The translations under genes and the position numbers were made by a program. From the IMG/VR virus record IMGVR_UViG_3300025652_000539, positions 1-24,193 of that record: a DNA stretch of 24,193 nt; one strand, given 5' to 3'. The first letter of the stretch is position 1, and every line of letters begins with the position of its first letter. Source of the DNA: a virus. Shown piece by piece: positions 1 through 23,930 of the stretch. The notes below the pieces were generated by a model. It saw only the letters and a list, made by a program, of their open reading frames with translations. It did no database searches and was not told the origin of the DNA.

Positions 1-344
1 AAGATATAACCCATGAATCCACCAATAACGGCTATACCGATAATTCTAGCTGTCCAATCTTTAGAGAACATAGATCTGGCACTTTGTATGTCTGCTGTCT
101 CTAGTGCAAACAGATCTACATCAAGTTCTTTCATCTTAATGTCAAAATCATTATCTAATTTCTTAAGTTCTACAAGTTGCTCAGGCGTGGCTTTCTGCAC
201 AGCTTTTTCTACATCTTTAGGAGTGTTCTTGCATCCCAACGCCTGAGAAACCATATTCATTGCCATGCCGCCCATTGGGCCACCTAAGGCAGTTCCGATT
301 GTAGGTGCTACTGCACCTAATACACCTTTTAATAGTTCTTTCAT
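1..344 (-). CDS. Holin-like small membrane protein (partial, runs off the left edge)
   Basis: The reading frame opens at ATG 342-344 and stays open to base 1, giving 114 codons with no stop, so the C-terminus is missing. The start MKELLKGVLGAVAPTIGTAL is followed by a Gly/Ala-rich hydrophobic stretch (about residues 8-37), a charged helical middle (PEQLVELKKLDNDF...MKELDVDLFAL), then KDWTARIIGIAVIGGFMG, where a second membrane segment begins. This layout matches my memory of the phage/gene-transfer-agent holins of the 3-TM family, in which a DWTxR motif precedes the membrane segments. The likely role is inner-membrane permeabilisation at lysis. It follows the cyclase gene after a 31-base gap and has its own upstream copy of the TTGACR-N9-TGCAACTTAC element. 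AAAGG lies only one base before the ATG, closer than usual. The family call is by resemblance and is moderate. Confidence 0.6.
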   Translation of the reverse strand, partial: MKELLKGVLGAVAPTIGTALGGPMGGMAMNMVSQALGCKNTPKDVEKAVQKATPEQLVELKKLDNDFDIKMKELDVDLFALETADIQSARSMFSKDWTARIIGIAVIGGFMGYI

Positions 345-348
345 CCTT

Positions 349-379
349 TAATTTGTAAGTTGCAAATCGTAAACGTCAA
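349..379 (-). promoter_or_regulatory. Bipartite promoter-like element, copy 3
   Basis: On the minus strand this reads TTGACG, nine bases, then TGCAACTTAC. Copies 1 (22024-22054) and 2 (8141-8171) have the same two blocks at the same spacing. The TTGAC block overlaps the TGA stop of the cyclase gene (376-378). TTGACG resembles a sigma-70 -35 box. The region 16-17 bases downstream, TACAAAT, is only a poor -10. It differs from the other copies by lacking GGTCTT after TTAC. The holin-like start codon is only 5 bases downstream of the element. If this is a sigma-70-type promoter, the mRNA would be nearly leaderless. Confidence 0.5.
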
Positions 380-2151
380 CTTGTGTAGGTATAAATTTTT
401 ATTTTTTCTTCTTTCCCTTTAACCTGTATTTCATCTACATAGTCAAAGATCATATCGTCTACACCTTTAATTGTTTCTAAAGGAAATAGGGTGTTGGCTT
501 CGTAGTTCCTAGTTTGTCCTTCTAACCTGGCACCTAGATTAACGGCATCGCCTATAACTGATAGATCCATTCTCAATTCTGAACCCATGCCACCTACTAT
601 GGCATTACCTGTAGAAATGCCAGTACCTACAGCTATTAATGGCAAACCTTTAGCCTGATACTCTTCTGCAATTATCTTTGCTTCTGCTTCTATGGCTCTA
701 CCTGCCAACAATGCCTTTGTTCTGTGGTCTTCACATGGAATGGGATAGTTCCACCAGGCCATGATGCAATCACCCATGTATTTATCTATGGTGGCACCGT
801 TAGCCAATAGTATGTTTGTCATTCTGTCTAAAAAATTATTAATTAGATCTACAAGATCTTCTGGGTTATCTTTGTGTGCTTCTGATATAGGGGTAAACCC
901 AACAATGTCCATGAAAAGGAACGACATTTCTTTACGCTCTCCGCCTAGTTTCATTAGTCCAGGATCTTTGATAATCATATCTACATACTCAGGCGATAAG
1001 TAAGTTTTAAACTGGTCGCGAATCTGCTGTCTTAACTTGTACTGTTCTCTAAATCGTAAGTAATAAGAAACACTGCCTGCAATAAAAGATCCTATCAATG
1101 TCCAGGTAACATCTAATAATATGCCTGCCTGGATTAACCAATGCCCACACCAGGCAAGCGCAAAAAGGCTTGATATGGTTAATACTAGGCCAAGGCTCAT
1201 GCTTAGTTTCTTCGTTAGAAGCCAAATACAGAGGACGAAAATTAGAAAAATAGCAATTTCTGCGCCTAAATGCCATTCTGGGATCCTGGGAGAGTTAGGC
1301 AGTAATATTGATTCAGCCAGGGCGGCTTGTAAGAAATGACTGTTGATTAATCCAACTGGTGTTGAGATCTGCCCAAGTCCACCTGCGCTAGATCCTATGA
1401 TTACGTATTTATCCTGGGCGGCTTCTAAGTTGTCTAGGCTAATCACTTCTGTATCTACGTAGCTTACCCACTTACGCATTAGCGGATCTACTGATATAGA
1501 TGGTAGTGATGGTATACGTATCTCACCATCAGTCATATTTATAATGTAAGTGTCCTGGCCTGTAAGTTGTTTAAGGATCTCTAGTGCCATACTTGGTGCA
1601 AAGCCGTCTGGTGTTCTTAGTAACAAAGGGATCTGTCTTACTAAACCATCTACATCTGTAGGTGCGGATGCTACGCCTTGGGCGGCACTTTGTTTTAATA
1701 GATCTATGTTTTCTATAACGCCTCTAGCCTGGTATCCATTTCCTAGATCTTCACCAAGTACAACTGTGCCAACCGTAGGTGGGAAGGTGTCACTGCTTGC
1801 GCTTTCAAATACTGACAAGACAGAAGGGCCGTAACTTAACGCCTCTGCAAATGCTACATCACCACCCAATCTATCTGGTTGCGGAAATGCAAACGCCCAG
1901 GCTTGTCCATAACTGCCAGCTTCTAATAATTTAATTTGTAGATCTGCTAGATCTTTTCTAGGTAAAGGCCAACCACCAAGATCTTCAAGATCCTTTTCTG
2001 TTATGTCCAAAACAACAAAGTTACCTGTAGGATCTTGTTTGGGTATAAACGCATCAAAGGTTTTAAGTTTTAAGATCTCTAGCGGTGTTACCTGAAACAA
2101 TAAAGGTAATATTAGGCATGTTAGTAGGGTAGGGAATATTAGTCTCTTCAT
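376..2151 (-). CDS. CHASE2-domain class III adenylate cyclase, membrane-bound
   Basis: This 591-residue protein has an N-terminal membrane anchor (about 5-21), an extracytoplasmic CHASE2 sensor domain (about 25-290), three further membrane helices (about 296-313, 318-335, 343-362), then a cytoplasmic class III cyclase domain (about 400-585). The catalytic set looks complete: metal-binding Asp415 (FLFMDIVGF) and Asp461 (DKYMGDCIMAWW), purine-reading Lys457 and Asp529, and transition-state Asn538 and Arg542 (VIGDAVNLGARLE). The Lys/Asp pair predicts ATP rather than GTP as substrate, so the product should be cAMP. The start overlaps the FecR gene stop as TAATG, implying coupled translation. Bacterial genomes often pair FecR-domain proteins with CHASE2 cyclases, so the two probably act together, with the FecR protein or its ligand outside and cAMP inside. 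It is unusual in a phage and shows no sign of decay. Confidence 0.88.
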   Translation of the reverse strand: MKRLIFPTLLTCLILPLLFQVTPLEILKLKTFDAFIPKQDPTGNFVVLDITEKDLEDLGGWPLPRKDLADLQIKLLEAGSYGQAWAFAFPQPDRLGGDVAFAEALSYGPSVLSVFESASSDTFPPTVGTVVLGEDLGNGYQARGVIENIDLLKQSAAQGVASAPTDVDGLVRQIPLLLRTPDGFAPSMALEILKQLTGQDTYIINMTDGEIRIPSLPSISVDPLMRKWVSYVDTEVISLDNLEAAQDKYVIIGSSAGGLGQISTPVGLINSHFLQAALAESILLPNSPRIPEWHLGAEIAIFLIFVLCIWLLTKKLSMSLGLVLTISSLFALAWCGHWLIQAGILLDVTWTLIGSFIAGSVSYYLRFREQYKLRQQIRDQFKTYLSPEYVDMIIKDPGLMKLGGERKEMSFLFMDIVGFTPISEAHKDNPEDLVDLINNFLDRMTNILLANGATIDKYMGDCIMAWWNYPIPCEDHRTKALLAGRAIEAEAKIIAEEYQAKGLPLIAVGTGISTGNAIVGGMGSELRMDLSVIGDAVNLGARLEGQTRNYEANTLFPLETIKGVDDMIFDYVDEIQVKGKEEKIKIYTYTS

Positions 2152-3266
2152 TAATTTCCTTGCCTTATTTTGATTGCATTTGATGATCCACCGTTGATTT
2201 TTACGACATTCTCTACGCCATCTTGTATAAGAATTAACGTATAAGCACCAGAACCGTCAACATCTAACCTAAAACTGTTACCTACAGATCTAAATAAGCT
2301 AATTTGTTGTCCTGTTATGATCGTTGTAATTTGTGTATCTTTATCTTGTCCAATATTAGTACCACTTATTTTGATGCCTGTAGCCACTTGATCTAGTGTG
2401 TCTTCTTCATCAGCTATAGCCAAAGCATCAATAATGTTTAATAGATCTTCTAAAAAATTTACGTCTAGGTAATTTATATCCAGTTCTGTAAATTCTAAAG
2501 TTTCAGTATTATCTAAAAAGTCTTCTGCTAAGAAATCTACATCTAAGCCGTCAAAGTCTAAATAGTCTGCTGTGTTTTGTTGTTGATCTTCCTCTATATA
2601 ATCTTTATTTCTACTAGGTGGGGTAATAATCATCATGTTATCTATCATGTCTAAAGTGAGATCTAAAATGACAGGTGGTGAAGGTTTTTGATAATAAGTA
2701 ATGGCAGTTGTAGCCTGGAAGGGTTGATTTAAAACAACCTGTCCTATAGCCGTCTCTACCACTATTTCACCACTACTATTACCAAACTCATCAGGCAATA
2801 GAACAAAAAGTGAAGAACCCTCTTCGCGTGTAGTCACAGAAAAGTTTGTACCTCGCACATAAACATCTGCACTAGGTGTTTTTATACGTATAGCTTTCTT
2901 GTTATTAAATTTACCTGTTAAAAACCTTGCACTACCAGAAGCAAAACGTAAGGCCATTTCTGATTTGTTAGGATCTGGATCATAAATATACTTAGTAATT
3001 TTTAAACGGCTATGATCCATGACACGCACTTGCGTTTCATCTTCAAAAGTAATTTGTACTCTACCGCGTTGCGTTTTTACATCGTCAAGCTGTTGTATAG
3101 CAAAATCTATTTCTGCGCCATACGGTTTATCTCTTACTACTTGAGCATTGCCGTTAAGTTCGCTTATGTTCCCAATACTAGCAAGAGGTACTGGTACCGC
3201 CGTCACTCTGAACGACACAGATGCTAGAAGTACCAGTGCCGCTAGATATAATTTTAAGCCAATCAT
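2151..3266 (-). CDS. Secreted FecR-domain protein with acidic Leu-Asp repeats and curlin-like C-terminus
   Basis: This 371-residue protein starts with a Sec signal peptide (residues 1-23, likely cut after VTA). A FecR domain follows (about 30-190), recognisable by its opening pattern, the DETQVRVMDHSRLKI strand and the late PSADVYVRGTNFSV signature. Residues 234-277 hold two acidic imperfect repeats built on Leu-Asp (DYLDFDGLDVDFLAEDFLDN and the ELDINYLDVNFLEDLL region). Residues 319-371 look like curlin repeats: GNSF, IQDGVEN and IRQGN at regular spacing. This suggests that the tail can co-assemble with, or bind, the curlin-like product of the preceding gene. It has no anti-sigma-type cytoplasmic domain, so it is not a classical iron regulator. 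The first 89 bases overlap the end of the curlin gene in another frame, and the end overlaps the cyclase start. FecR call strong; curlin-tail call moderate. Confidence 0.78.
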   Translation of the reverse strand: MIGLKLYLAALVLLASVSFRVTAVPVPLASIGNISELNGNAQVVRDKPYGAEIDFAIQQLDDVKTQRGRVQITFEDETQVRVMDHSRLKITKYIYDPDPNKSEMALRFASGSARFLTGKFNNKKAIRIKTPSADVYVRGTNFSVTTREEGSSLFVLLPDEFGNSSGEIVVETAIGQVVLNQPFQATTAITYYQKPSPPVILDLTLDMIDNMMIITPPSRNKDYIEEDQQQNTADYLDFDGLDVDFLAEDFLDNTETLEFTELDINYLDVNFLEDLLNIIDALAIADEEDTLDQVATGIKISGTNIGQDKDTQITTIITGQQISLFRSVGNSFRLDVDGSGAYTLILIQDGVENVVKINGGSSNAIKIRQGN

Positions 3267-3891
3267 TATTTAAAGTAGATTGTTGTTCTATAGAAAATGT
3301 ACGGTCTGAACCATCATGTTCTAAATGAAAGAAGCCATTAGATGCACCATCACCGTCATAAGTTAATGTGTTATCAGATCCATCAAAATCAACATAATTT
3401 GTAGCTAGATCTATATCTATAGCGGCTGTAATTGAGTTACTAGATCCATTTATTATCCAATCTAAATCTAAATTACTAGCCTGCGCCGCGTTAGCCTGGT
3501 TAAGCGTAAATTGATTACTATTACCTGTAACATCTACATTTATATTTGATGAATCTGCATTGTAAGTATTTGTAGGATCTACACTTGTATTAAACGTATT
3601 TGAATCGCCGTCAAATTCATAAAATCCCACAAAAGAGTCACCAATTATCTTTCCTAACCATTTATTAGAATCACCAATCTGGTTTATATCTAATGTAGCT
3701 ATATTTGATGTAAATTGAAACGCTGTAAGATCTCCTGCTGTACTACCCGCGCCACCAATAATGTTTCCTGTTCCTAATTGTTCCAGGTCTATACTTGCGG
3801 CTCCTGTTGATCCAACCTGGTTGATCCAAATTTCGTTATCATTTGCTAGCAAGGGTGTAGATAATATTAATAATATAATTAGTTTTTTCAT
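3178..3891 (-). CDS. Secreted curlin-repeat (amyloid-like) protein
   Basis: A 237-residue protein with a clear signal peptide (MKKLIILLILSTPLLA, cut before NDNE). The mature part is rich in Asn, Gly, Ser, Asp and Thr and holds degenerate curlin repeats of the S/I-x5-Q-x-G-x-x-N type: IWINQVGSTGAASIDLEQLG, IATLDINQIGDSN, VDVTGNSNQFTLNQ, WIINGSSNSITAAI, VDFDGSDNTLTYDGDGASN. It ends with Cys225 and Cys237, which could form a disulfide. It is more acidic and less regular than E. coli CsgA/CsgB, so it may be a fibre subunit, a nucleator or a CsgG cargo of another kind. It starts by an ATGA overlap with csgG, with GAGG eight bases upstream, which fits export through that pore. Its last 28 codons overlap the signal-peptide region of the FecR gene. 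Confidence 0.7.
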   Translation of the reverse strand: MKKLIILLILSTPLLANDNEIWINQVGSTGAASIDLEQLGTGNIIGGAGSTAGDLTAFQFTSNIATLDINQIGDSNKWLGKIIGDSFVGFYEFDGDSNTFNTSVDPTNTYNADSSNINVDVTGNSNQFTLNQANAAQASNLDLDWIINGSSNSITAAIDIDLATNYVDFDGSDNTLTYDGDGASNGFFHLEHDGSDRTFSIEQQSTLNNDWLKIISSGTGTSSICVVQSDGGTSTSC

Positions 3892-4709
3892 TCTTTATAC
3901 CTCCATAAATTAAGTGTTACACCCTCGTTTATAGTTGCCAGTACAGCACTCTCTATTGCTATTTGTAGTGCCACTGACATTGGTTCATTTGCTACAGAGC
4001 CACCTTCCATTTCTATCAATTCGGTGCCTTCGCTAATAAACCTAAATACATCGTTATCTAAAGATGCTGAAAACAACGTCTTAGTAACTAAAACTTCTGT
4101 TATAACTTTGCCTGTACTTACTGAAACTGTGCGTAAGCTTAATGTTATTTGATCTCTTCTTATTTGACGATTTGCGCCCACTGATAGCCACCTAATCCCC
4201 AGACCTGACGATTCAATATTTGCTTCATAAGATAGGACGGATCCAACCATGATGAGATCTGCGAAAACGAGCGGCATAAGCTGTGTATCTTCGTTAAATG
4301 TATCTCTGGTAGATCTAATTAACTGCCTTTCTTTAGTTACTGCATCTAAGGACACTCTTTCTACTACATCAAAGAAGTTAGAATGTTTTAGTGCGCGTAT
4401 TAGATAGGCGTGTGGTGCCTGGGTTAGTGCTGTACTAAATGTAGCGTATTTAGAATTAGATCTTCTTTGTCCTGTTTGATCTGTAAAATCATAAACGGCA
4501 ATAACAGGTTTTCTAACTGGCTCTTGTACATTTGCCAACTCTGTATGCAATGTCTGTAACTGTGCATCTTCTATGTACTCTATGGGTGGAAGATTATTTT
4601 CTAGGGGATCAATCATTAGACTGCAACTAGAAACCAAAACCGCCAATAGGCACAACCACAGTAGTTTCAGTGCCATCCTCTGAAATGATTGTAACTCTAA
4701 CTTCATCAT
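3888..4709 (-). CDS. csgG: CsgG-like outer-membrane curli secretion pore lipoprotein
   Basis: A 273-codon frame whose likely true start is Met12 (base 4676), which gives a lipoprotein signal MALKLLWLCLLAVLVSSC with acylated Cys29. From about residue 67 the protein matches CsgG in order: VIAVYDFTDQTGQRRSNSKY, FSTALTQAPHAYLIRALKHS, FDVVERVSLDAVTKERQLIR, ADLIMVGSVLSYEANIESSG, LRTVSVSTGKVITEV, then FRFISEG and NEPMSVALQIAIESAVLATI. CsgG forms a nonameric outer-membrane pore that exports curlin from the periplasm. The full-length match suggests a working pore. The gene overlaps csgF upstream and joins the curlin-like gene by ATGA, as expected for a pore, accessory and cargo operon. No CsgE or CsgD is visible. 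Family call strong; start codon uncertain, since no well-spaced ribosome site favours either Met. Confidence 0.9.
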   Translation of the reverse strand: MMKLELQSFQRMALKLLWLCLLAVLVSSCSLMIDPLENNLPPIEYIEDAQLQTLHTELANVQEPVRKPVIAVYDFTDQTGQRRSNSKYATFSTALTQAPHAYLIRALKHSNFFDVVERVSLDAVTKERQLIRSTRDTFNEDTQLMPLVFADLIMVGSVLSYEANIESSGLGIRWLSVGANRQIRRDQITLSLRTVSVSTGKVITEVLVTKTLFSASLDNDVFRFISEGTELIEMEGGSVANEPMSVALQIAIESAVLATINEGVTLNLWRYKE

Positions 4710-5091
4710 CTGTTATCTCGTATTCAATTAAATTGCCGTCTAATTCCATAGATCCGCTAGTGCGTGGATCTTCACCAAACAAGGCATCTTCTATTCTTTT
4801 TGAAATGTTGGCATAGATACGACTGGTGAGATTCCGCATAAACCTTGCTTCTACAGTGTTATTTTGTTCGCGCTCTATTTCGTCTTGTAATGCCTGGATC
4901 TCCTCACGTAAGGCTTTTTTTCTATTTGCTTCAGTTTGTTCTATAAAAAAGTAATGATTAGACGTACCCACACCGCTAAAAGAAGGTGATTTAAACTCAT
5001 GCACCATTTCATCAGCCTGTACTATCTGAAACACCAGGACAAAAAAGATAATGTTTACAAGCAATAATTTAACTTCTGTATTGCCCATCAA
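4627..5091 (-). CDS. csgF: CsgF-like curli assembly factor
   Basis: A 154-residue secreted protein with a signal peptide ending IVQA before DEMVHEF. The mature N-terminus, MVHEFKSPSFSGVGTSNHYF, matches the conserved CsgF start (F-x-NP-x-FGG pattern) that plugs into the CsgG channel. A central charged helix follows (about residues 52-77), then a helix ARFMRNLTSRIYANISKRI, and a C-terminal strand region (MELDGNLIEYEITDDEVRVT...TETTVVVPIGGF) like the CsgF tail. In E. coli, CsgF sits at the outer mouth of CsgG and holds the nucleator at the surface. It overlaps the 116-residue membrane gene by ATGA and csgG by 83 bases (50 if csgG starts at Met12). It is longer than E. coli CsgF mainly because of the charged helix. 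Confidence 0.82.
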   Translation of the reverse strand: MMGNTEVKLLLVNIIFFVLVFQIVQADEMVHEFKSPSFSGVGTSNHYFFIEQTEANRKKALREEIQALQDEIEREQNNTVEARFMRNLTSRIYANISKRIEDALFGEDPRTSGSMELDGNLIEYEITDDEVRVTIISEDGTETTVVVPIGGFGF

Positions 5092-5438
5092 TCCCTTCTT
5101 TGATCTTCTTTTTGTGCCTTAGTTATTTCGTTGGTGTCTATCAACTCTGGCATCTTTACTAAGGTCTTTAGTAACACATCATTTCTTATAAGTGATTGGT
5201 CTATCATTCTTACCCTATCAATCAAGCTGACTATAATCCCATATTGTGAATCTAGTTTTGTTGTTAGCCTTTCTTCCATCGTATCAAGGCTTGCTTGCAC
5301 CTTATCATCTAGGACATCTACCTTCTCAGTCATGCCGTCAATGATCTTAAATATAAGTTTATAAAGAAAGAACCCTACAGCTACAAGTGCCGCAGTAGGA
5401 ACCCCCAATTCTGAGATAATAAGAACCGCATCATCCAT
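5088..5438 (-). CDS. Membrane-anchored coiled-coil protein, possible lysis accessory
   Basis: I do not recognise a named family. The 116 residues begin with one hydrophobic segment (about 12-33, GVPTAALVAVGFFLYKLIF). A long amphipathic helix follows, likely a coiled coil (about 35-95, KVDVLDDKVQASLDTMEERL and SLIDRVRMIDQSLIRNDVL). The tail is charged and ends QRRD. This layout, one N-terminal anchor plus a rod, is seen in phage holin-associated proteins and i-spanins, but it gives no proof. It lies between the XhlA-like gene and csgF and shares an ATGA overlap with csgF, so it is translated with both groups. It might belong to the curli cassette rather than to lysis. Confidence 0.6.
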   Translation of the reverse strand: MDDAVLIISELGVPTAALVAVGFFLYKLIFKIIDGMTEKVDVLDDKVQASLDTMEERLTTKLDSQYGIIVSLIDRVRMIDQSLIRNDVLLKTLVKMPELIDTNEITKAQKEDQRRD

Positions 5439-5439
5439 T

Positions 5440-5622
5440 TTAAATATACCTAGAGGCGAGCAGGGTAGTGATGATAAGTGGGTAAATACCCCACATAATA
5501 GTTTCTAGTCTTTTAAATTTTGCAGATCCTTCGTCTAATCTGTCTTCTATGTACTTAAAGCGTATAGCATTTTCACGCTGATACGCTTCTAGTGTTGTAA
5601 TTGTTTCAGTTTGGCTTTCCAT
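5440..5622 (-). CDS. XhlA-like tail-anchored membrane protein (lysis accessory)
   Basis: A 60-residue protein. Residues 5-40 form a charged, probably coiled-coil helix (YQRENAIRFKYIEDRLDEGS), and residues 43-57 form a C-terminal hydrophobic anchor (MWGIYPLIITTLLAS). The size, order and E-x-R-L-x-x-LE-x-x-MW-G-I pattern resemble the XhlA/hemolysin family of small phage membrane proteins that act with holins. The start overlaps the end of the upstream 96-residue gene by 17 bases, and the next gene starts one base after its stop. Family call by resemblance. Confidence 0.6.
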   Translation of the reverse strand: MESQTETITTLEAYQRENAIRFKYIEDRLDEGSAKFKRLETIMWGIYPLIITTLLASRYI

Positions 5623-5896
5623 TAGATCCTAATAGATCCTGTAGTTCTTTTTGTTTAAGGCTGAAATGATCTCTTTTAAGTTCAAATTCTTGTACTTGTG
5701 GTGCTAACTGCTCTATCTGGTTTTGTAGATGTTGCATGGTTGCGGCCACTTTGTATTGATGTTCGTCTAGTGAATCACTACTAACAACATTGCCATCAGG
5801 CATATTTATGTCGAAGGTTTGCTTTTGAATAGTGCCTTGAGTTTGCTCCAGGCTTTCTTTATCTTCTCTTTTATTTTCTTCATTTTTGTTTTCCAT
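5606..5896 (-). CDS. Conserved-looking hydrophilic coiled-coil protein, unknown function
   Basis: I do not recognise this 96-residue protein. It has no signal peptide or membrane segment. The first 25 residues are highly charged (Glu, Lys, Asn), the middle (about 28-45) has FDINMPDGNVVSSDSLDEHQ, and the second half is a helical, Gln/Leu-rich stretch likely to be a coiled coil (YKVAATMQHLQNQIEQLAPQ and onwards). AGGAG stands about nine bases before the ATG, a good ribosome site, so it is probably a real gene. It lies in a run of short genes after the tail fibre and overlaps the XhlA-like gene, so a structural or lysis accessory role is possible. Confidence 0.6.
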   Translation of the reverse strand: MENKNEENKREDKESLEQTQGTIQKQTFDINMPDGNVVSSDSLDEHQYKVAATMQHLQNQIEQLAPQVQEFELKRDHFSLKQKELQDLLGSNGKPN

Positions 5897-5927
5897 TGGT
5901 TTTGCACTCCTATTTAATGGTTTTGGT

Positions 5928-6272
5928 TTAAGAAATTGTTTTTTGTACGCTTGTGGGTGTTATCTTTTCTGCTATCTGTGCATCTAAACTTGCTTTCATG
6001 GCTGTAACAGTATCAGCAGTCAAAGCCGCTTCTACCCAACCTTGTACTTTTGCGGCATCAAGACTTCCAAAGGCTGTAAAGCTAGAGATACTATCTGTGT
6101 CTAAACTTTGGCTTCCGTAACTTGTAGCTATCCAGTTGTTACCATCTGAATCTTTGTTAGTGCCATCTGTTGCGGTAAGTCTCCAATGTACGTTATAAAC
6201 TACATCACTATTGCTGTCTTTTGTTGGGTAAGTGTCAACTGTACTTACATCCCATGCATATGAAATTGCCAT
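5928..6272 (-). CDS. Small fibre-associated protein of unknown function
   Basis: A 114-residue soluble protein. The opening AISYAWDVSTVDTYPTKDSN, followed by VVYNVHWRLTATDGTN and a Trp-Ile-Ala-Thr-Ser stretch, looks like a beta-rich fold. The second half is helical (SLDAAKVQGWVEAALTADTV, MKASLDAQIAEKI). Small proteins starting with this YAWxVxxxxT...VVxxVxWR pattern are, from memory, common beside tail-fibre genes in marine myo- and siphophages, but I know of no proven function. The ribosome site AAGGAT lies inside the end of the fibre gene four bases away, so the pair is probably co-translated. It may decorate or help assemble the fibre. Confidence 0.65.
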   Translation of the reverse strand: MAISYAWDVSTVDTYPTKDSNSDVVYNVHWRLTATDGTNKDSDGNNWIATSYGSQSLDTDSISSFTAFGSLDAAKVQGWVEAALTADTVTAMKASLDAQIAEKITPTSVQKTIS

Positions 6273-6276
6273 AATT

Positions 6277-8103
6277 TTATCCTTCTAAGGTTTCTATTCT
6301 AGTTTTTAAGTCTTCTATAATTGTTTGTTGTTCTTGTATTGCTTTTGTTAAAACTGCTGTAAGTTTTTGATAACTGATTGAGTACAAATCTTTATCTGTA
6401 TCTACAGGTACACTTACTACTTCAGGTATCAAAGGTAAAACTTCTTGTGCTATAAAACCTATATCGTTTGTACCTTCGTCTTGTTTTACAAACTGTCCGT
6501 CTTGTTTTATTGAATTATGATGTTTATATTGTGATGGCTTTAATTGTTTAACGATATCTAGTCCATAAGAAAGAGTTTGTATGTTTGATTTTATTCTACT
6601 GTCTGAATAAGTAACCCAAGCATTTGCCCTACCTTGACCTGCTGCACTTCCAGTATTTGGAAGCTCTAAACGGTAAGCAGGTGAATCGTCTCCAACACCT
6701 AAATTGCCTCCAGTAAAATAAGAACCACCGTTACCAGTAAAGAAAACCTTAGCATTTTGACCGCCATCATACATAGTGTAAGTTGCGGCATCTGCGCCAC
6801 CACCTACAGTAAAATAATGCCTTGCCTCTTCTCCATCATTCGGTGTTGTGTTGAATCTTACAGAACCGCAAACAGATAATTTATCACCTGGATTTGTAGT
6901 GTTTATGCCCACGTTTCCATTTGCAAGAATACGCATCCTTTCTGAAGAGTTATATATATCCTTAAAGAGTAAATTTCCATTAGCACCTTCTGAATTTATA
7001 CTAAAAGCATCTGCTGTACCTTCAGTTAGATAAAAACCACCTACTCCACTCAAGCATTGTGCTTTTACTCTTCCAGATGAATCAATACGCATAGCTTCTG
7101 CGGTATTCGTAGTAAATGACATATAATTAGAGGAATGGTCATAGAAAATACTGCCAACATCAGCATCATCATTATCCCCAAAGCATAAGACTGAATCTCC
7201 AACTGAATGCCCCAATAAAAATAACTTGGCATTACCAGTTGAAACGGTTGTCTCTATTTTCTGTGATATATGTGCGCTAGTAGATTTAAGGTGTAATAGA
7301 ACATCAGGACTCGTAGTTCCTATGCCTACTTTACCATCTGTTTCTATACTGAACTTTTCAGCAGAAGAATCACTAATCTTTAATCTTCCATCTGAATCAT
7401 CCCTATCAAACTTCCAATAACTAGAGGTACTATTAGAAATAGCAAACGTACCCGTAACATCAAGGGTTGTTTGTGGGTTCGGAGTTGCTATGCCTACGTT
7501 TCCACTTTTATTTACTGATACTTTAGGTTCATCTACATTAGCAAGACCAATAACAAAATTATCTGTACCATCATCATGCCCTATTGTGTATTGTGCAGAG
7601 CCATCATTAAAAAACTTAATTTCTGTGTCAGAACCACTAACTGCTTCTAGTCTTAACCTTGTATCTCCTGAAGATGCTTTTATATCTAAAATTTCACCTG
7701 GGGCTCTTCCTATTCCAACTTGTTCAGAACTATTAATAGTTATAGCAGTTGCATTTGCGTTATCGTCTATACCTGCGGATGTAAATGTAGTTGCCGTTAA
7801 TGTTGTAAAAGCACCTGTTCCTGCTGAACTGGCACCTATGTTAGTGCCATCAATAGTACCGCCGTTTATATCTACCGTGTTATTAGCAGTAACAGAGAAG
7901 GGCATAGTAATCCAGGCGTTATTCGCACTGTTTCTTAATTTTAATACATTAGCAGAAGTGTCTAACCACCAAAGATAAGCGTAGGTGGTGCCAGGTGCGG
8001 AAGATCCGCTATTGTTTGAAGATATGGCCAATGCCATATTGTTAATATCTGCCCTAACTGTTGCACCAGAGGCATTAGCTATAACGTAATCATGTTGTGC
8101 CAT
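6277..8103 (-). CDS. Tail fibre/spike with VGIGT repeats and self-cleaving S74 chaperone domain
   Basis: A 608-residue tail fibre. The N-terminal part (about 1-90) includes LWWLDTSANVLKLRNSANNA, typical of the fibre attachment segment. The middle carries at least five copies of a strand-turn motif: VGIGRAPGEILDIKA, VGIATPNPQTTLDVTG, VGIGTTSPDVLLHL, VGINTTNPGDKLSVCG, LGVGDDSPAYRLEL. These fit a trimeric beta-helical shaft. The C-terminus (about 495-608) is an intramolecular chaperone of the peptidase S74 family: YSDSRIKSNI (Ser/Lys dyad Ser502 and Lys505), IGFIAQEVLPLIPEVV, then a terminal coiled coil. The chaperone drives trimerisation and then cuts itself off just before the dyad. AAAGGTGG lies about nine bases before the ATG, and promoter-like element copy 2 lies 38 bases upstream. 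It is likely the receptor-binding fibre. Confidence 0.88.
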   Translation of the reverse strand: MAQHDYVIANASGATVRADINNMALAISSNNSGSSAPGTTYAYLWWLDTSANVLKLRNSANNAWITMPFSVTANNTVDINGGTIDGTNIGASSAGTGAFTTLTATTFTSAGIDDNANATAITINSSEQVGIGRAPGEILDIKASSGDTRLRLEAVSGSDTEIKFFNDGSAQYTIGHDDGTDNFVIGLANVDEPKVSVNKSGNVGIATPNPQTTLDVTGTFAISNSTSSYWKFDRDDSDGRLKISDSSAEKFSIETDGKVGIGTTSPDVLLHLKSTSAHISQKIETTVSTGNAKLFLLGHSVGDSVLCFGDNDDADVGSIFYDHSSNYMSFTTNTAEAMRIDSSGRVKAQCLSGVGGFYLTEGTADAFSINSEGANGNLLFKDIYNSSERMRILANGNVGINTTNPGDKLSVCGSVRFNTTPNDGEEARHYFTVGGGADAATYTMYDGGQNAKVFFTGNGGSYFTGGNLGVGDDSPAYRLELPNTGSAAGQGRANAWVTYSDSRIKSNIQTLSYGLDIVKQLKPSQYKHHNSIKQDGQFVKQDEGTNDIGFIAQEVLPLIPEVVSVPVDTDKDLYSISYQKLTAVLTKAIQEQQTIIEDLKTRIETLEG

Positions 8104-8140
8104 CTAAAACCCACCTTTACATGTTATAAATTTTGTATAA

Positions 8141-8171
8141 AAGACCGTAAGTTGCATATTCATATTGTCAA
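8141..8171 (-). promoter_or_regulatory. Bipartite promoter-like element, copy 2
   Basis: On the minus strand this reads TTGACA, nine bases, then TGCAACTTACGGTCTT. The sequence and spacing are identical to copy 1 at 22024-22054, apart from the nine-base spacer. TTGACA overlaps the TGA stop of the J gene (8168-8170). A perfect sigma-70 -35 box with no good -10 at 16-18 bases suggests either an activator-dependent promoter or a box for a phage regulator. The downstream AT-rich gap (8104-8140) contains TATACA. The fibre start is 38 bases further on, room for a short leader. Confidence 0.58.
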
Positions 8172-11100
8172 TATCCTCTTGCTAAGTAGTAAGCAGTTCT
8201 GGCTATGCCTGCACCGCTTGCGTTATAAAACCTAAGTGTAAATCCTGTAGCAGAACTGCTAGTTATCGCATAGTAATCACCAGTAGCCATATCGTTAGCA
8301 GTGATGGCTATTTGTGGCACAGCTAAGAATGGTGTGTCATAGGTAAATGCTGTACCGCCTGTAGCTGTAGTGCCTGTTTCTGATTCAAATCTAAAGTAAA
8401 CCTCTGCTTTTGCTAATAACTGCGATACGTTAATTTGGTGTGTTGTATCGCCTGTTGTACATTCCAATTTGAATTTATGAGCTCTGCCGTAATAGTTACC
8501 AATCGTAAATTCTTGGTACGCTGAATAAGTTGCAGATCCACTTGCAGGATCATCATTGGTAGTAGCAATAAATAAAGTAGCGTTTACATCATCAAATGTA
8601 TTGGCATCTATAGCTTCCCAAGTATCAATATTACCTGCTCTGTTATCCCATATATCTGTTGTAGCAACCGTAGTAAAAGTTATATTGCCTGTTAATGTGG
8701 CTGACATTACACGCGTTAGATCTATGTAACTAGCAAACTCGTAAGATCCAGAAGTGTCAACACCACCAATGGCATCAAATAAGCCCCAAGTGTCTATATT
8801 TTCTGTTTTGCTGTCTATAAGCGTATCAGCTTCGAACTTAAGTACACCGCTTTCAGCATCAACTACCATATTTGTTTTTGTGCCTGTAAAGGTAGTATCT
8901 GTAATAGTTTGTTGTGTTCTTTTTTCTTGTATTGACGGCGTAACAGTATTGACAATACTTGTAGCACTTACTGATTTATTTCCTGTTGAATCTACAGCTT
9001 TAATTAAATACGTACCTACTAACAAAGGCATTGAAGCAGAGTTAGAAGATCCTGGTACATCTGATCCTATTTTTATAGACGTACCCCAAGTAGCACCGCT
9101 AGTAGCCACGCTGTGTCTTATTTCAAATGTACCACCAACTTTAACATCTAGATCTGTAGTAGGTGTCCAAGACAAGTTAGCTTGTGTGCTTTCTGCTCTT
9201 AAATAAAAGTTTGTTACATTAGCAGGTGCGGCACTAAGTCCTGTTATTTCTGCTGTAACGGTTCCGTAAGGTGATTTGATACCTGCATCGTTTACAGCCC
9301 TTACTCTAAAGTCATAATTGCCTGGTGCAATGTCAAAAAACTCAAAGAAAGTACCAGTAGAAGATCCTAAGCGTTCAAAATTATTAGATACGCTAGAAAG
9401 TTTATATTCAACTTCATAACTTTCTATGTATACACCTAATGCTTCCCAATCTGTGTTGCTTTGTGCCACCCAAGATAACACCGCTTTAGCTTTTACACCT
9501 GAACCTGCTGTAGTTGATATAAGTGATTCAACTACGCCTGTTATACCAGGAGCATTAACGGCAGGCAGTACAGTCGTGCTTTTTACGTTTATAAGTTTTG
9601 TAACATAATTAGATTTAAAACCTGCTGTATTTACTGCTCTTATAGCAAATTGATACACACGAGGATCTAAATTATCTATTGTAAATTGTGTGCCAGTAAC
9701 CGTTCCTACTTGTGTATAGGAAGTTTGTCCTGCGGCGCGGCCTATGATTGCTACTTCGTAATGTTTTATGTAAGGCGAAGTAGGTGCCGCCCAAGTTAAA
9801 GTAACTCTGTTTGTAATTTTAGGATCATTAAAAAATAGTGCTTCTGTTGCAACTGGATTGATTGGTTTAGATACAGTGCTTAGATCTGGTAGATTTGTAT
9901 TAGGAGCGGTATCAAAAGTATTTGCGGTGCCTACTGTGTAAACATCTGCATCGTATTCCCTAGCTATTATAGAAATTTCATCGTTAGCCTCTATGCCTAT
10001 TTGTATAACTCTAAATAATTTACCTGCACCACTATTTAAACTAGACCAACCAGGCGCATCTAATTTTATGTATATGACATCGCCTACTTCTGCCAACAAA
10101 CCTTCTTGTAGTGTCCTAAAATCAATAATGATGCCCTGTCTACTTTGTTTTAAAACCTGTTCTGCAATCATTTGTGCCTGGTAATAATTAGCAGTAAAGG
10201 GCAGTTCTATTTTGCGCTCTAATAATAAATTATTATCTTGTGTCTTGTAGGTGCTACTCTCTGAATATACAAAATCTGCTTGCCACTCATTCTCTGGATT
10301 AAAGAAGTTTGCTTGTACTCTGTTAGCTAAACTTTGTTTACCAGGTAACGTAATATTAAAATTAGGCATGATGGTTGATTCGTCAAACGTCAATGAAGCT
10401 GTTTCTGCCTTATCTATAATTAGTTTGTAAAAACCACCACTAAACACAAGCATACCCCTACAGGACGTAAGTAATTTATTAAGTATGTTCATGCTTGATT
10501 CACCAACAGAAACAACGCCATTCATCGTAAATCGTTTCTGTGTGACGGTTGTACCATCGTCTTTTGTAATAGTAATTAGTTCATCACAATAATTTGCCGC
10601 CGCTTCAAATGATGATGTGCTTATTTGTGTTCCTGATATGCCCTTACCGTAGATAGAATTAGTCAAATAGTCTTTGATACAAAGAGCAGGATTATTACTG
10701 TATCTATCAATAGAAAATGCAGTTCCAGAATAAGTGGCTCTTGTGTCTTCAACAACCTTACCTAATATATCTGCATTAATAGTAGGCACACCAGATCCCC
10801 AAACATCCGAATCAGCTTCTAGCCTAAGATAAAGATAAGCAACACCGCTTAATTTATATGTAGAATCCCATACAAATGGCTTACCGTCTGAGTTAGCTGT
10901 ACCAACTAACTCTGCATCTGCCGCTTGAGTGGCTTCACCTCTATGCACACTTACATAGGCCTTACCTTCAAATCTTGCGTCCATCTGTGGCCAGATCTCT
11001 ACGTTATTAGCATAAACTTTTTTTACAGCACCTATTGGCCCTTCACAGAGTGCAATAACCATATTTAGGTATTCATTAGGCATCTGCCCATTTGGGTAAT

Positions 11101-11413
11101 CATCGCTTACATCAACATAACCAGGAGAAGCCGACACAAACACTTGCACACCACCTACACGCCTCGCGCCATAGATGACAGGCAAGGGGGCAGAACTGGA
11201 TCTGCTGTTGCTTAGAACTGTTGCGCCTTGTTGTGCTAGTCCTATTCTGGGTATCTCATATAAGCCCTGTATGGCACCGCCAACAGCGTTAAAAAAAGCA
11301 CCTGCCGCTACATAGCCTAATACCTGTCCTGCAATGTAATTACCTGTTGCATAAGAAAATAATAAAGTAAAAAACTCAATCGTTCCTTTTACAAAAGCTA
11401 CTGCCTGCCCCAT
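8168..11413 (-). CDS. Lambda J-like tail tip attachment/host specificity protein
   Basis: A 1081-residue protein at the distal end of the tail module, where lambda J sits. A hydrophobic N-terminus (about 1-50) precedes the J signature region: PLPVIYGARRVGGVQVFVSA, then MVIALCEGPIGAVKKVYANN. A tail-hub region runs to about 500 (FNITLPGKQSLANRVQANFF; GLLAEVGDVIYIKLDAPGW). After it come about three fibronectin type III domains (about 505-820), marked by VTLTWAAPTSPYIKHYEVAI, YQFAIRAVNTAGFKSNY, YDFRVRAVNDAGIKSPYG and ANLSWTPTTDLDVKVGGTF. The C-terminal 250 residues are beta-rich and end TAYYLARGY, probably the part that touches the receptor or host sugar. It starts by a TAATG overlap with the NlpC/P60-like gene. 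Confidence 0.9.
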   Translation of the reverse strand: MGQAVAFVKGTIEFFTLLFSYATGNYIAGQVLGYVAAGAFFNAVGGAIQGLYEIPRIGLAQQGATVLSNSRSSSAPLPVIYGARRVGGVQVFVSASPGYVDVSDDYPNGQMPNEYLNMVIALCEGPIGAVKKVYANNVEIWPQMDARFEGKAYVSVHRGEATQAADAELVGTANSDGKPFVWDSTYKLSGVAYLYLRLEADSDVWGSGVPTINADILGKVVEDTRATYSGTAFSIDRYSNNPALCIKDYLTNSIYGKGISGTQISTSSFEAAANYCDELITITKDDGTTVTQKRFTMNGVVSVGESSMNILNKLLTSCRGMLVFSGGFYKLIIDKAETASLTFDESTIMPNFNITLPGKQSLANRVQANFFNPENEWQADFVYSESSTYKTQDNNLLLERKIELPFTANYYQAQMIAEQVLKQSRQGIIIDFRTLQEGLLAEVGDVIYIKLDAPGWSSLNSGAGKLFRVIQIGIEANDEISIIAREYDADVYTVGTANTFDTAPNTNLPDLSTVSKPINPVATEALFFNDPKITNRVTLTWAAPTSPYIKHYEVAIIGRAAGQTSYTQVGTVTGTQFTIDNLDPRVYQFAIRAVNTAGFKSNYVTKLINVKSTTVLPAVNAPGITGVVESLISTTAGSGVKAKAVLSWVAQSNTDWEALGVYIESYEVEYKLSSVSNNFERLGSSTGTFFEFFDIAPGNYDFRVRAVNDAGIKSPYGTVTAEITGLSAAPANVTNFYLRAESTQANLSWTPTTDLDVKVGGTFEIRHSVATSGATWGTSIKIGSDVPGSSNSASMPLLVGTYLIKAVDSTGNKSVSATSIVNTVTPSIQEKRTQQTITDTTFTGTKTNMVVDAESGVLKFEADTLIDSKTENIDTWGLFDAIGGVDTSGSYEFASYIDLTRVMSATLTGNITFTTVATTDIWDNRAGNIDTWEAIDANTFDDVNATLFIATTNDDPASGSATYSAYQEFTIGNYYGRAHKFKLECTTGDTTHQINVSQLLAKAEVYFRFESETGTTATGGTAFTYDTPFLAVPQIAITANDMATGDYYAITSSSATGFTLRFYNASGAGIARTAYYLARGY

Positions 11414-11820
11414 TAATTAATCCTCAATGCCCAATTAAAATAATCAAAACCATCAATTCTTGTTATAGATGTTTTACTGTCTTCTATTACAGATAATATT
11501 TTAGATCCCAAACAAATATGCCCCATTTCAAAGCCTTTAGTATGCACAATTAATATATCGCCAGTTCTGGCTAGTTTAGGTGGTAATTTTGTAGCCCCTA
11601 ATTCTTCTATAATTCCATCTGTAAAAGTGTATTTTTGTTTTTTATTAAATTTGACAGCACCTATCTTAGTTTTGTATTTGCTATAGATCATACTTTGTAC
11701 ATCATTGCCCCATACTTCGTCTAAGTATTTAAGCACTAAGGTATTACAATCATTAGTACCCCAGGCGAATGGGGTATTTAGTTCTTTTTGTGCAAACGCT
11801 ATAGTTTCTATGTCCTTCAT
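11413..11820 (-). CDS. NlpC/P60-like tail peptidase (lambda K-like)
   Basis: A 135-residue protein with the cysteine-peptidase signature FAWGTNDCNTLVL, giving Cys25 as nucleophile, and GFEMGHICLG, giving His101 as partner. Between them is the RTGDILIVH strand. Such proteins cut peptidoglycan cross-links and sit at the tail tip to help DNA entry. The position between the gpL-like hub and J is the same as lambda K, but the protein lacks lambda K's extra JAB-like N-terminal domain and is short. ATGA overlap upstream and TAATG overlap downstream imply coupled translation. The Asp before the Cys and the GH motif favour an active enzyme. Confidence 0.78.
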   Translation of the reverse strand: MKDIETIAFAQKELNTPFAWGTNDCNTLVLKYLDEVWGNDVQSMIYSKYKTKIGAVKFNKKQKYTFTDGIIEELGATKLPPKLARTGDILIVHTKGFEMGHICLGSKILSVIEDSKTSITRIDGFDYFNWALRIN

Positions 11821-21408: not shown

Positions 21409-21999
21409 TTAAAATCTCGCTTTTATTAAGGATCCTGTAGATAAACCTTTGCTTATCCTGTCCTTTTTAACTTCTAAATTAACTTTGTGTCTGTAATATT
21501 CGTACCAATCTCTAATTTCTTGTGGAGTCATACGGCTTAAAGATCTACCTGCTACACTCATACTTGATTGGTCTATTGATGCTCTGTTTTCTAACATGGC
21601 TTGTAACGCATCCATTACTATTCTTGCGTGTGATCTTGGATCTGCACCATCAGCATCAAGATTAGGTGTGATAGATAAATAACCAGAACTAACAACAACT
21701 CTTTGGGAAGATCCGTTAGTTATATATTCTTGATAACTGTAATCACCTTTGGTGTAACCTGCCGTAGTTGAACTAGGTACCTCTATGACGTAGGCAGTTG
21801 ATGTTTCTGATATGACACTGCTTGCTAATGCTATCTCTGTGGCAGTAGAACTTAATAATCTAAAGCTATAAGTTAGTGTGTAATCAGCAGGCGCGTAATC
21901 TGTTGCTATATCTTCACGTTTCCATGCCCAACGGTCACCTACCGTTAAAGTCTCTGGCACATTAGAAGGGTAATTTTCTGAGTCAAATAAATTAGCCAA
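21409..21999 (-). CDS. gpW-like head-tail connector with an added N-terminal beta domain
   Basis: A 196-residue protein between terminase and portal, the position of lambda W (68 residues). Residues 1-115 are beta-rich (TLTVGDRWAWKREDI, YTLTYSFRLLSSTATEIALA, YSYQEYITNGSSQRVVVSSG). Residues 120-196 form a helical hairpin pattern like gpW: ARIVMDALQAMLENRASIDQ, SVAGRSLSRMTPQEIRDWYE, then a basic end. The start is TTG (21997-21999), with AGGG about eight bases upstream. The promoter-like element copy 1 is 25 bases upstream, so this gene would open the head operon. A long form like this is probably a fusion of a virion beta-sandwich and gpW. Confidence 0.68.
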   Translation of the reverse strand: MANLFDSENYPSNVPETLTVGDRWAWKREDIATDYAPADYTLTYSFRLLSSTATEIALASSVISETSTAYVIEVPSSTTAGYTKGDYSYQEYITNGSSQRVVVSSGYLSITPNLDADGADPRSHARIVMDALQAMLENRASIDQSSMSVAGRSLSRMTPQEIRDWYEYYRHKVNLEVKKDRISKGLSTGSLIKARF

Positions 22000-22023: not shown

Positions 22024-22054
22024 AAGACCGTAAGTTGCATTTTTAGCTTGTCAA
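22024..22054 (-). promoter_or_regulatory. Bipartite promoter-like element, copy 1
   Basis: On the minus strand TTGACA, nine bases (AGCTAAAAA), then TGCAACTTACGGTCTT. It lies in the only gap between the large terminase and the gpW-like gene, with the TTG start 25 bases beyond. TTGACA is a perfect -35 match; TACGGT at 16 bases is a weak -10. It shares 16 bases after the spacer with copy 2 and 10 with copy 3. Three matches in gaps at module boundaries on the coding strand make chance unlikely. Confidence 0.6.
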
Positions 22055-22058
22055 CACT

Positions 22059-23930
22059 CTACCAATCCTTAACAAATGATTTTTTTCTATTAGGTCTACG
22101 TCTTTCTTTGGCTAGATCTCTGGCTTGTGGTTCTTTAGTAGGTTGTTCTTCTTGTTGTTCTTCTGTGGTTGATGTCTTATTTGCAATCTTTTCTAAGTCT
22201 GGATTAAGTATGTGAAAGGCTACTAATGAATAAACGTATGTATCTAATGCTTCATTTCTTTCGCGTGTCGGTACCCATACAATAGTTTTACGTCCTTTTA
22301 CGTATTTAACTTGTCTTTTCTCAGATGTAAGCTGTTTAAAGTATTCATCATCAACAGTAGAAGGGAAATGGATATAGCCTGGGCCTGGTTCTTCGATCTG
22401 TAACCAACTGAACACAGTTTCTTTTGCAGTATCTACACCAGATGGAAAGAGTTGCACTCTTTGTCTACCTGATTGTGTTGGTCTACCTGCTATTGGCTTG
22501 CCAGGTTGGGATTGTCCTTTAATGGCGAATATTCTTCTTCCTTGTCTAACTTTTACAAAGTTATAAACAGACTGTGTTTGATAACCTGAGTCTATAGCGA
22601 TGCACGCTATAGGTAGATCTGCTTTAGTTTCTCTTTGATACCTTCTCTGCACGTAATCATCCAGTTCATGCCATACGGCATACTGTGATGTTTCGCCCCA
22701 AAACACTTGATTATCTATGACGTAAGAATGACTTTCTTTGCCCCATCCTACTACTTGTAATTCTAATCTATCATCTTGCACGTCAACGCCTGCGGTAATT
22801 ACTAACACATCATCTGGTATGCACTCTGCATCCCAATTCTCTCTGCGTTTTAGTAAGCCTTCCGATTCTATTTCTGTTCCAGAGTCGCGCCACACTTCGC
22901 CAAGTGAAGTATTAACCCAAGTCTTTAACAACTCTGGGTGCTTTTTAGCTTGTGCAAATCCAACAGCCATTGATGCCCACGTAGACCAGGGCGAATACAG
23001 TTCTGATATATGAAATCCTGCAATTGTAGTTGTTTCGTTTTCTGCTCTCCATTCTCCATCACGTAACATCTGCACTTTATGTTTTTCTTCCATAATAGAT
23101 CCACATTCTTGGCACACGTAATGTGCAGTTTCAGGATCACTTTCTTCCCAATGAACATTGGCCCATTCTAGTGTTATGTATTGATTACAATGTACGCATG
23201 GCACCCAGAACTTGCGTTTATCGCTAGTCTCAAACGCTGTCTGTATGCGTGACAATCCATCTATTGTGGGTGTCGATGCCATAATAATTTTGCGGTTCCA
23301 AAATGTAGTAGTACGTTTAGTAGCTAATGATATTGGATCTCCTTCACTGCCTGCGGATGCAGGATAACGATCACACTCATCTACTAACAATATTCTTATT
23401 GGCCTACTTGCCAAACCACTTGCAGAGTTAGCACCAGTAATAGTCATGTGACCACCAGGAAACTTTTTGTGCAAAACTGTGTTTTCACTATCTCTAGATC
23501 TAGGTTCTTTAACTTTGTCTTCTAAGGCAGGTGATGAAGCAAGCATAGGTGCTAGTCTATCTTTAGAAAAAGATCTGCCCATTTCTATAGTGGGTTGTAA
23601 GCACATGATAGGGCAGGGATCCTGACTAATGTAGTAACCCAACACGTTAAGTAAGAGTTCAGTGGCGCCAATCTGCGCACTTTTCATCACCACTACTGTT
23701 TCTATATTGCGATCTATAATGCAATCCATTATTTCTTTTTGGTAAGCCGCGCGTGATGTTCTCCACTTGCCTGGTTCTGCGCTAGACTCAGAAGTTAAGA
23801 AACGATAGTTATCAGCCCATTCGCTAACCAGTAGCTTCTTGGGTGGTTGGAACGTCTTTGCCGTTTCCGTCCATACCCATTTCATTGGATTCTGTGTATT
23901 CAGATTTGGAGAGTTCGTTAAGTGCTTCAT
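22059..23930 (-). CDS. terL: Terminase large subunit (GpA family)
   Basis: A 623-residue packaging motor of the lambda A type. The N-terminal ATPase shows VVVMKSAQIGATELLLNVLG, whose loop MKSAQIGATE (82-91) acts as Walker A, and Walker B RILLVDECDRYP with Asp184/Glu185. A zinc-ribbon-like pair of CxxC motifs follows (Cys245/248 and Cys273/276). The C-terminal nuclease has acidic residues in GVDVQDDRLELQVVGWG (Asp383), IAIDSGYQTQSVY (Asp447) and EALDTYVYSLVA (Asp563). It cuts concatemeric DNA and pumps it through the portal. The basic C-terminus (KERRRPNRKKSFVKDW) probably docks to the portal. The start overlaps the small subunit by 107 bases; Met17 (23880-23882) is an alternative that shortens the overlap to 59. 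Neither has a clear ribosome site. Confidence 0.93.
   Translation of the reverse strand: MKHLTNSPNLNTQNPMKWVWTETAKTFQPPKKLLVSEWADNYRFLTSESSAEPGKWRTSRAAYQKEIMDCIIDRNIETVVVMKSAQIGATELLLNVLGYYISQDPCPIMCLQPTIEMGRSFSKDRLAPMLASSPALEDKVKEPRSRDSENTVLHKKFPGGHMTITGANSASGLASRPIRILLVDECDRYPASAGSEGDPISLATKRTTTFWNRKIIMASTPTIDGLSRIQTAFETSDKRKFWVPCVHCNQYITLEWANVHWEESDPETAHYVCQECGSIMEEKHKVQMLRDGEWRAENETTTIAGFHISELYSPWSTWASMAVGFAQAKKHPELLKTWVNTSLGEVWRDSGTEIESEGLLKRRENWDAECIPDDVLVITAGVDVQDDRLELQVVGWGKESHSYVIDNQVFWGETSQYAVWHELDDYVQRRYQRETKADLPIACIAIDSGYQTQSVYNFVKVRQGRRIFAIKGQSQPGKPIAGRPTQSGRQRVQLFPSGVDTAKETVFSWLQIEEPGPGYIHFPSTVDDEYFKQLTSEKRQVKYVKGRKTIVWVPTRERNEALDTYVYSLVAFHILNPDLEKIANKTSTTEEQQEEQPTKEPQARDLAKERRRPNRKKSFVKDW

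Follow-up and report, generated by a model that had tools for sequence, protein, structure and literature searches.

Promoters recognized by sigma70 (RpoD) carry TTGACA, a spacer of 16-17 nt, a TAnnnT hexamer and a purine at the start. The box analyzed here shares these features, but it has an invariant 7-bp element in its spacer, and positions 3-5 of its -10 are far from consensus. The late activators RinA, Ltr and ArpU of Gram-positive phages are phage-encoded near the terminase genes. The candidate regulator of the box, an HTH protein, resembles them in having its gene near the terminase. Lambda-type Q has an element in the late-promoter spacer and a gene near the late block, as found here; it differs in that here there are three promoters, no leader terminator was seen and the protein is much smaller. 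GcrA of Caulobacter reads promoter DNA with a small N-terminal DNA-binding domain (residues 1-45), contacts sigma2 and stimulates open complex formation (PMC7403470). Its likeness to the HTH protein is one of working mode only: GcrA has 173 aa, is host-encoded and reads methylated DNA, whereas the HTH protein has 52-65 aa and is phage-encoded. The GcrA family is absent among the 25 families listed of the 37 Pfam families that matched the HTH set (E<=0.1), and a separate sigma2-interacting domain as in GcrA was not found in the HTH protein, which has no room for one beside its single three-helix HTH.

The nearest isolates by the terminase large subunit (TerL) are the CRP-822-type roseophages (up to 53%), whose late gene order is similar. 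SAR86 hosts are predicted for one of their subgroups, and in the paper that describes them the word 'promoter' occurs 0 times (PMC12629253). Unlike the phages studied here, the three CRP-822-type genomes that we checked have neither the box nor the HTH protein. A literature search, with most subscription journals outside its scope, returned no paper describing the box or the HTH regulator.

We call the whole stretch of DNA analyzed, 24,193 nt of an IMG/VR record from an uncultured marine virus of bacteria, the window. Three copies of the box stand in it among the following features, with the parts of each box in brackets.

3..344, minus strand: phrog_1544 protein, first gene past box 3, cut by the window end
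352..379, minus strand: box 3 (variant), CHASE2-cyclase / holin-like gap, TTGACG-N9-TGCAACT-TACAAA (TTGACG 379-374, TGCAACT 364-358, TACAAA 357-352; ATG at 344 begins 7 nt further)
376-2151, minus strand: CHASE2-cyclase, in the curli-related cassette (376..5091)
2151-3266, minus strand: FecR, curli-related cassette
3178-3891, minus strand: unknown gene, curli-related cassette
3888-4709, minus strand: CsgG, curli-related cassette
4627-5091, minus strand: CsgF, curli-related cassette
6277..8103, minus strand: tail fibre with Peptidase_S74 domain, first gene past box 1
8141..8171, minus strand: box 1, J / tail fibre gap, overlapping the J stop, TTGACA-N9-TGCAACT-TACGGT-CTT (TTGACA 8171-8166, N9 8165-8157, TGCAACT 8156-8150, TACGGT 8149-8144; predicted start A 8136)
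8168..11413, minus strand: tail tip J, its stop codon overlapping box 1
21409..21999, minus strand: head-tail joining protein with a TTG start, first gene past box 2
22024..22054, minus strand: box 2, TerL / head-tail joining gap, TTGACA-N9-TGCAACT-TACGGT-CTT (TTGACA 22054-22049, TGCAACT 22039-22033, TACGGT 22032-22027; predicted start A 22019)
22059..23930, minus strand: TerL

The phrog_1544 protein has unknown function in its PHROGs entry and we take it to be holin-like; in a related genome (G001) an endolysin-family gene comes next after its homologue.

All three boxes lie on the late-gene (minus) strand at identical spacing. An earlier note on this DNA had described two copies at identical spacing in gaps 14 kb apart plus a third variant, together far beyond chance, and an overlap of the element with the J stop codon, and both points hold: J spans 8168-11413, and boxes 1 and 2 are identical at 27 of 31 positions, while the best 31-mer pair in 100 dinucleotide shuffles reached 25 (2/100 shuffles). 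Site pairs that combine TTGAC with an identical 10-mer at offset 15 numbered three; 300 shuffles averaged 0.0. In 5/100 shuffles an exact repeat of at least 17 turned up, so a 16- or 17-mer repeat is unremarkable by itself and the weight rests on the fixed spacing and on the relatives.

A motif search of 2.9 million viral contigs gave 52 stretches, of which 38 lie at the three sites and 14 were dropped as unrelated by flank (13 unclassified and L027). Two relatives, G001 (35,244 bp, 14-bp repeat) and G002 (33,360 bp, 99-bp repeat), are terminally redundant and thus probably complete. In both, perfect copies number exactly three; they occupy the late strand and the same gaps: past TerL, past J and ahead of the holin-like gene. 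A search of isolate phages with the gap DNA directly gave no match.

We also gathered TerL, J and holin-gene loci by protein search rather than by the box. GCAACTTA is present in 16 of 35 TerL gaps, namely wherever TerL identity is at least 77% (16 loci); the other 19 do not have it, and four of these have TGCACCATAGTGT instead. For the 31 of 41 J loci with the 3' end in view, the gap contains TGCAACTTA in 19, TGG[AC]ACTTA in 9, TGCTACATA in one and nothing alike in two. TTGAC is kept in 29 of these 31 gaps, which were found without a TTGA[CT] pattern. The first four bases of the box partly overlap the J stop, and that part is therefore under coding constraint. Among the 69 holin-gene gaps (69 of 80 loci listed), 20 have the box: the 19 closest by protein and one of the more remote ones (L178). 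Box 3 persists although the gene before it can be the cyclase, FecR or something unrelated. Together with the position of the boxes at module borders, this might suggest a recombination linker or module-boundary sequence with no role in transcription. We hold that to be highly improbable, given the fixed spacing around a variable N9, the kept -10 positions and start-site A, and the single orientation.

Genomes of another group, type D, mostly have one box, after TerL. Several type D contigs (L247, L260, L266, L302 and others) show a 12-bp perfect palindrome, TAGAT[AT][AT]ATCTA, right past the predicted start, which is operator-like. Genome G032 has a third box variant (L228, contig position 20184) past its lysis genes, where these meet convergent genes; GGGGCAACT...AGTTGCCCC follows within tens of bases downstream, and only a short RNA would result.

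The case for reading the box as a promoter is strong. Most likely it is a host sigma70-type promoter: its -35 is consensus, its -10 is weak, and the A at the predicted start is conserved. The earlier note had found no good -10. A -10-like TACGGT does sit inside the box, 16 nt past TTGACA, but it is indeed weak (TAnnnT, with 3/6 matches to TATAAT), and a sigma70 promoter scan of 1-12000 did not list boxes 1 and 3. The spacer is 16 nt, sometimes 17, and its N9 varies in sequence while its length holds. In the distant J gaps the hexamer is TAAGGT, TATCGT, TATTAT, TATGGT or TATTGT: T1, A2 and T6 are kept and positions 3-5 are free. The spacing and these three bases recur at sites 1 and 2 and in the distant J gaps; site 3 mostly has TACAAA or TATAAA, with A at position 6. 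TTGAC occurs in 35 of 36 distinct boxes, a set picked by the pattern TTGA[CT], and this choice accounts for part of the invariance of GCAACTTA. The A eight bases past the hexamer, which lies outside the search pattern, is kept in 32 of the 36.

At site 3 this conserved A doubles as the first base of the ATG start codon, which puts TTGAC at -35. Of 16 distinct sequences, 15 have the ATG 7 nt past the hexamer; in L115 the distance is 6 nt. The simplest reading is that the holin-like transcript is leaderless. By eye, no Shine-Dalgarno sequence is evident at the box-bearing holin genes, and the boxless ones often have GGAGG. Readings as sigma54, ECF or RpoH promoters were dropped on spacing. A search for Sigma70_r2 found no phage sigma factor in G001 or G002 (0/2; controls positive in 10/14); one for the single-subunit phage RNA polymerase (PF00940) also gave 0/2 in these genomes, but 0 control genomes matched.

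To our knowledge, TGCAACT, the 7 bp in the spacer, is no part of sigma70 recognition. It is nevertheless the best-kept part of the box within a genome. Across phage lineages the element reads TGCAACT, TGGAACT, TGGCACT, TGCACCT or CGCTACA, and the sites within one genome agree. For instance, G036 has TGGCACT at both of its sites, eight genomes have TGCAACT at the TerL and J gaps alike, and G032 has TGGAAC at two sites and TGAAAC at the third. TTGACA, the spacer and TAnnnT would suffice for a sigma70-type call, and an ordinary host promoter served by no phage factor, its likeness within a genome coming from promoter copying between sites, would explain that much. However, within one genome N9 changes from site to site although the elements on either side of it agree, so simple copying fails to explain the matching spacer elements. 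In addition, the 7-mer is no sigma70 element, and in a 1.3-Mb SAR86 assembly the full box occurs once, in phage sequence beside the terminase. We therefore give this explanation little credence.

Co-occurrence and pairing in the compared sequences give good support to a phage-encoded HTH partner of the box. In the complete relatives, the early/replication region closes with the gene of this 52-65-aa protein. The gene immediately precedes a minor tail gene, cos and TerS, beside the late genes and outside the divergent control region. Many contigs (e.g., L055, L056 and L058-L060) begin ~475 bp before TerL, where the window also ends (24193), which suggests cos ends just ahead of TerS. The window ends at TerS and does not contain the HTH gene, whose presence in the window's phage is presumed from the relatives.

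A profile scan found 138 relatives of the HTH protein, of which 80 were kept. Where a locus has both the HTH gene and the TerL 3' end (39 loci on 31 contigs), a box follows downstream in 38 of 39 loci and on 30 of 31 contigs, and the contig of the single boxless locus ends 13 nt past TerL. The pattern TTGAC-N10-TGCACC-N-TAGTGT, with at most three mismatches, matched 24 of 28 records; in the four others the HTH gene is ~640 nt from the contig end, so the TerL gap is probably absent there. Conversely, five boxless genomes (G012, G013, CRP-821, CRP-811 and CRP-406) had no HTH match at E<1e-3, and the isolate phage collection held no convincing relative (best E 0.2). The protein has a single three-helix HTH (predicted model of modest confidence, pLDDT 76), and the member shown falls below the Pfam cut-offs. 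Foldseek returned nothing for the model at E<=0.001, its matches being generic HTH domains at E>=0.5, and a profile search of the PDB gave RacA alone (E 4e-4 over 23 residues).

The recognition helix of the HTH protein changes with the spacer element. TGCAACT is paired with DVDKATVSRW, TGGAAC with GTSKTTVWRW, TGGCACT with GVTKSTIRRW or DKSKSTVRRW, TGCAC[CAT] with DVHPST[VI]RRK, AGAACCT with GCHPSTVRRK and CGCTACA with DVDPSTIRRW. The sharpest case is L241: its TerL is 95% identical to that of G032, yet its box has TGGCACT as in G036 (81%). In the recognition helix it likewise sides with G036, showing Arg at the place where G032 has Trp. In a partial Mantel test on 26 rows, HTH protein and box remained correlated given TerL (r=0.55, 1/5000 permutations), but the N9 control was also significant (0.44, 0/5000), so this test cannot separate co-evolution from shared descent.

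We propose, with a probability of roughly 60%, that the three boxes are late promoters of host sigma70, activated by the 52-65-residue phage HTH protein at the spacer element. The boxes, their positions, their near-invariant spacing, the co-variation between sites and with the HTH protein, and the co-occurrence are observed; the use of sigma70, the start sites, binding by the HTH protein and activation over repression are all parts that we infer. Host sigma70 RNA polymerase would use the boxes through a TTGAC[AGT] -35, a spacer of 16 nt (sometimes 17) and a weak, mostly TAnnnT -10, and transcription would start ~8 nt past the -10, at the conserved A. The HTH protein would bind the 7 bp that adjoin the -10 on its upstream side, which in this phage read TGCAACT. 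Once bound, it would help the polymerase open the promoter, offsetting the weak -10. Encoded at the end of the early region, it would turn on the packaging/head/tail, the fibre-plus-cassette and the lysis blocks together. The earlier note had suggested a dedicated activator or an altered polymerase. The co-varying spacer element and the co-occurring HTH protein favor a dedicated phage regulator, and an altered polymerase is unneeded.

The activating role is suggested by the weak -10 and by the position of the gene. Operators commonly lie inside the core promoter, as the spacer element does, and the HTH protein could instead repress the late promoters by blocking polymerase, for example in lysogeny or early infection. 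A -35 near consensus and the apparent prophage state of one related phage would suit such a repressor. We regard it as unlikely, since the weak -10 at sites 1 and 2 suggests a need for help and the HTH gene lies by the late genes, away from the divergent control region.

Alternatively, the factor might bind the promoter spacer, load onto polymerase and read through terminators, as lambda Q does. The spacer site and the gene just before the late block resemble Q and its element, and the single box past TerL in most type D genomes would fit. Against this, at each of the three sites in the window genes begin 0-45 nt past the predicted start with no obvious leader terminator, and a scan of 1-12000 found nothing terminator-like on the minus strand near box 1 or box 3. 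Moreover, the window clade has three promoters per genome, and the HTH protein is far smaller than known Q proteins. Antitermination thus seems quite improbable.

Activation by the HTH protein may also define a new activator family, in which a lone HTH of 52-65 residues reads the 7 bp immediately upstream of the -10, pairs with host sigma70 and retunes all late promoters of a genome together through an evolving code (Trp to Arg in the helix with A to C at -17). We advance this tentatively, at somewhat less than even odds. The natural series of protein-DNA pairs could make the recognition code readable, and, if the regulator is a lone HTH acting from the spacer, it would be strikingly small for a phage activator and would offer a compact promoter-switch tool.

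Under this proposal, uncultured marine phages, among them one in a SAR86 genome, would have a concrete circuit for late-gene control. The window TerL had no relative among 84,980 species genomes. The HTH profile matched one of the species genomes, that of an uncultured SAR86 cell, where contig CACEDS010000004.1 (L308, L310-L313) joins ~48 kb of bacterial genes to phage genes, the gene kinds being judged by ORF starts. The phage part has the HTH protein, TerS, TerL and the one box of this assembly. The related phage is an apparent prophage; a chimaeric assembly is possible.

The boxes say nothing about the nature of the curli-related cassette. The earlier note had argued that shared control with the tail fibre makes the cassette a regular late function rather than a moron, a tempting inference that the relatives correct: box and cassette each occur without the other. 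G002 has all three boxes without csgG, csgF, fecR or the cyclase, and L138, L142, L148, L160 and L132 have cassette genes with no box ahead of the next gene. In the window, box 3 stands after the cassette, separate from box 1. Fibre and cassette point the same way, the cassette coming second, so transcription from box 1 could plausibly continue into it. In this lineage the two are probably transcribed together, which by itself would not decide between a moron and a regular late function.

What lies between fibre and lysis genes varies: on the G002 contig (L092, 26048-29471), the cassette's place is taken by a 373-aa protein rich in Asn and Thr and another of 770 aa. G003 and G016 have kept FecR and are missing the cyclase. 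In the window (376-3266), CHASE2-nucleotide cyclase and FecR adjoin the phage-borne CsgG and CsgF. Elsewhere, in L091 (3950-4100) and L089 (1870-2030), AACGCATAAA motifs are repeated beside the primase-polymerase gene and are possibly origin iterons.
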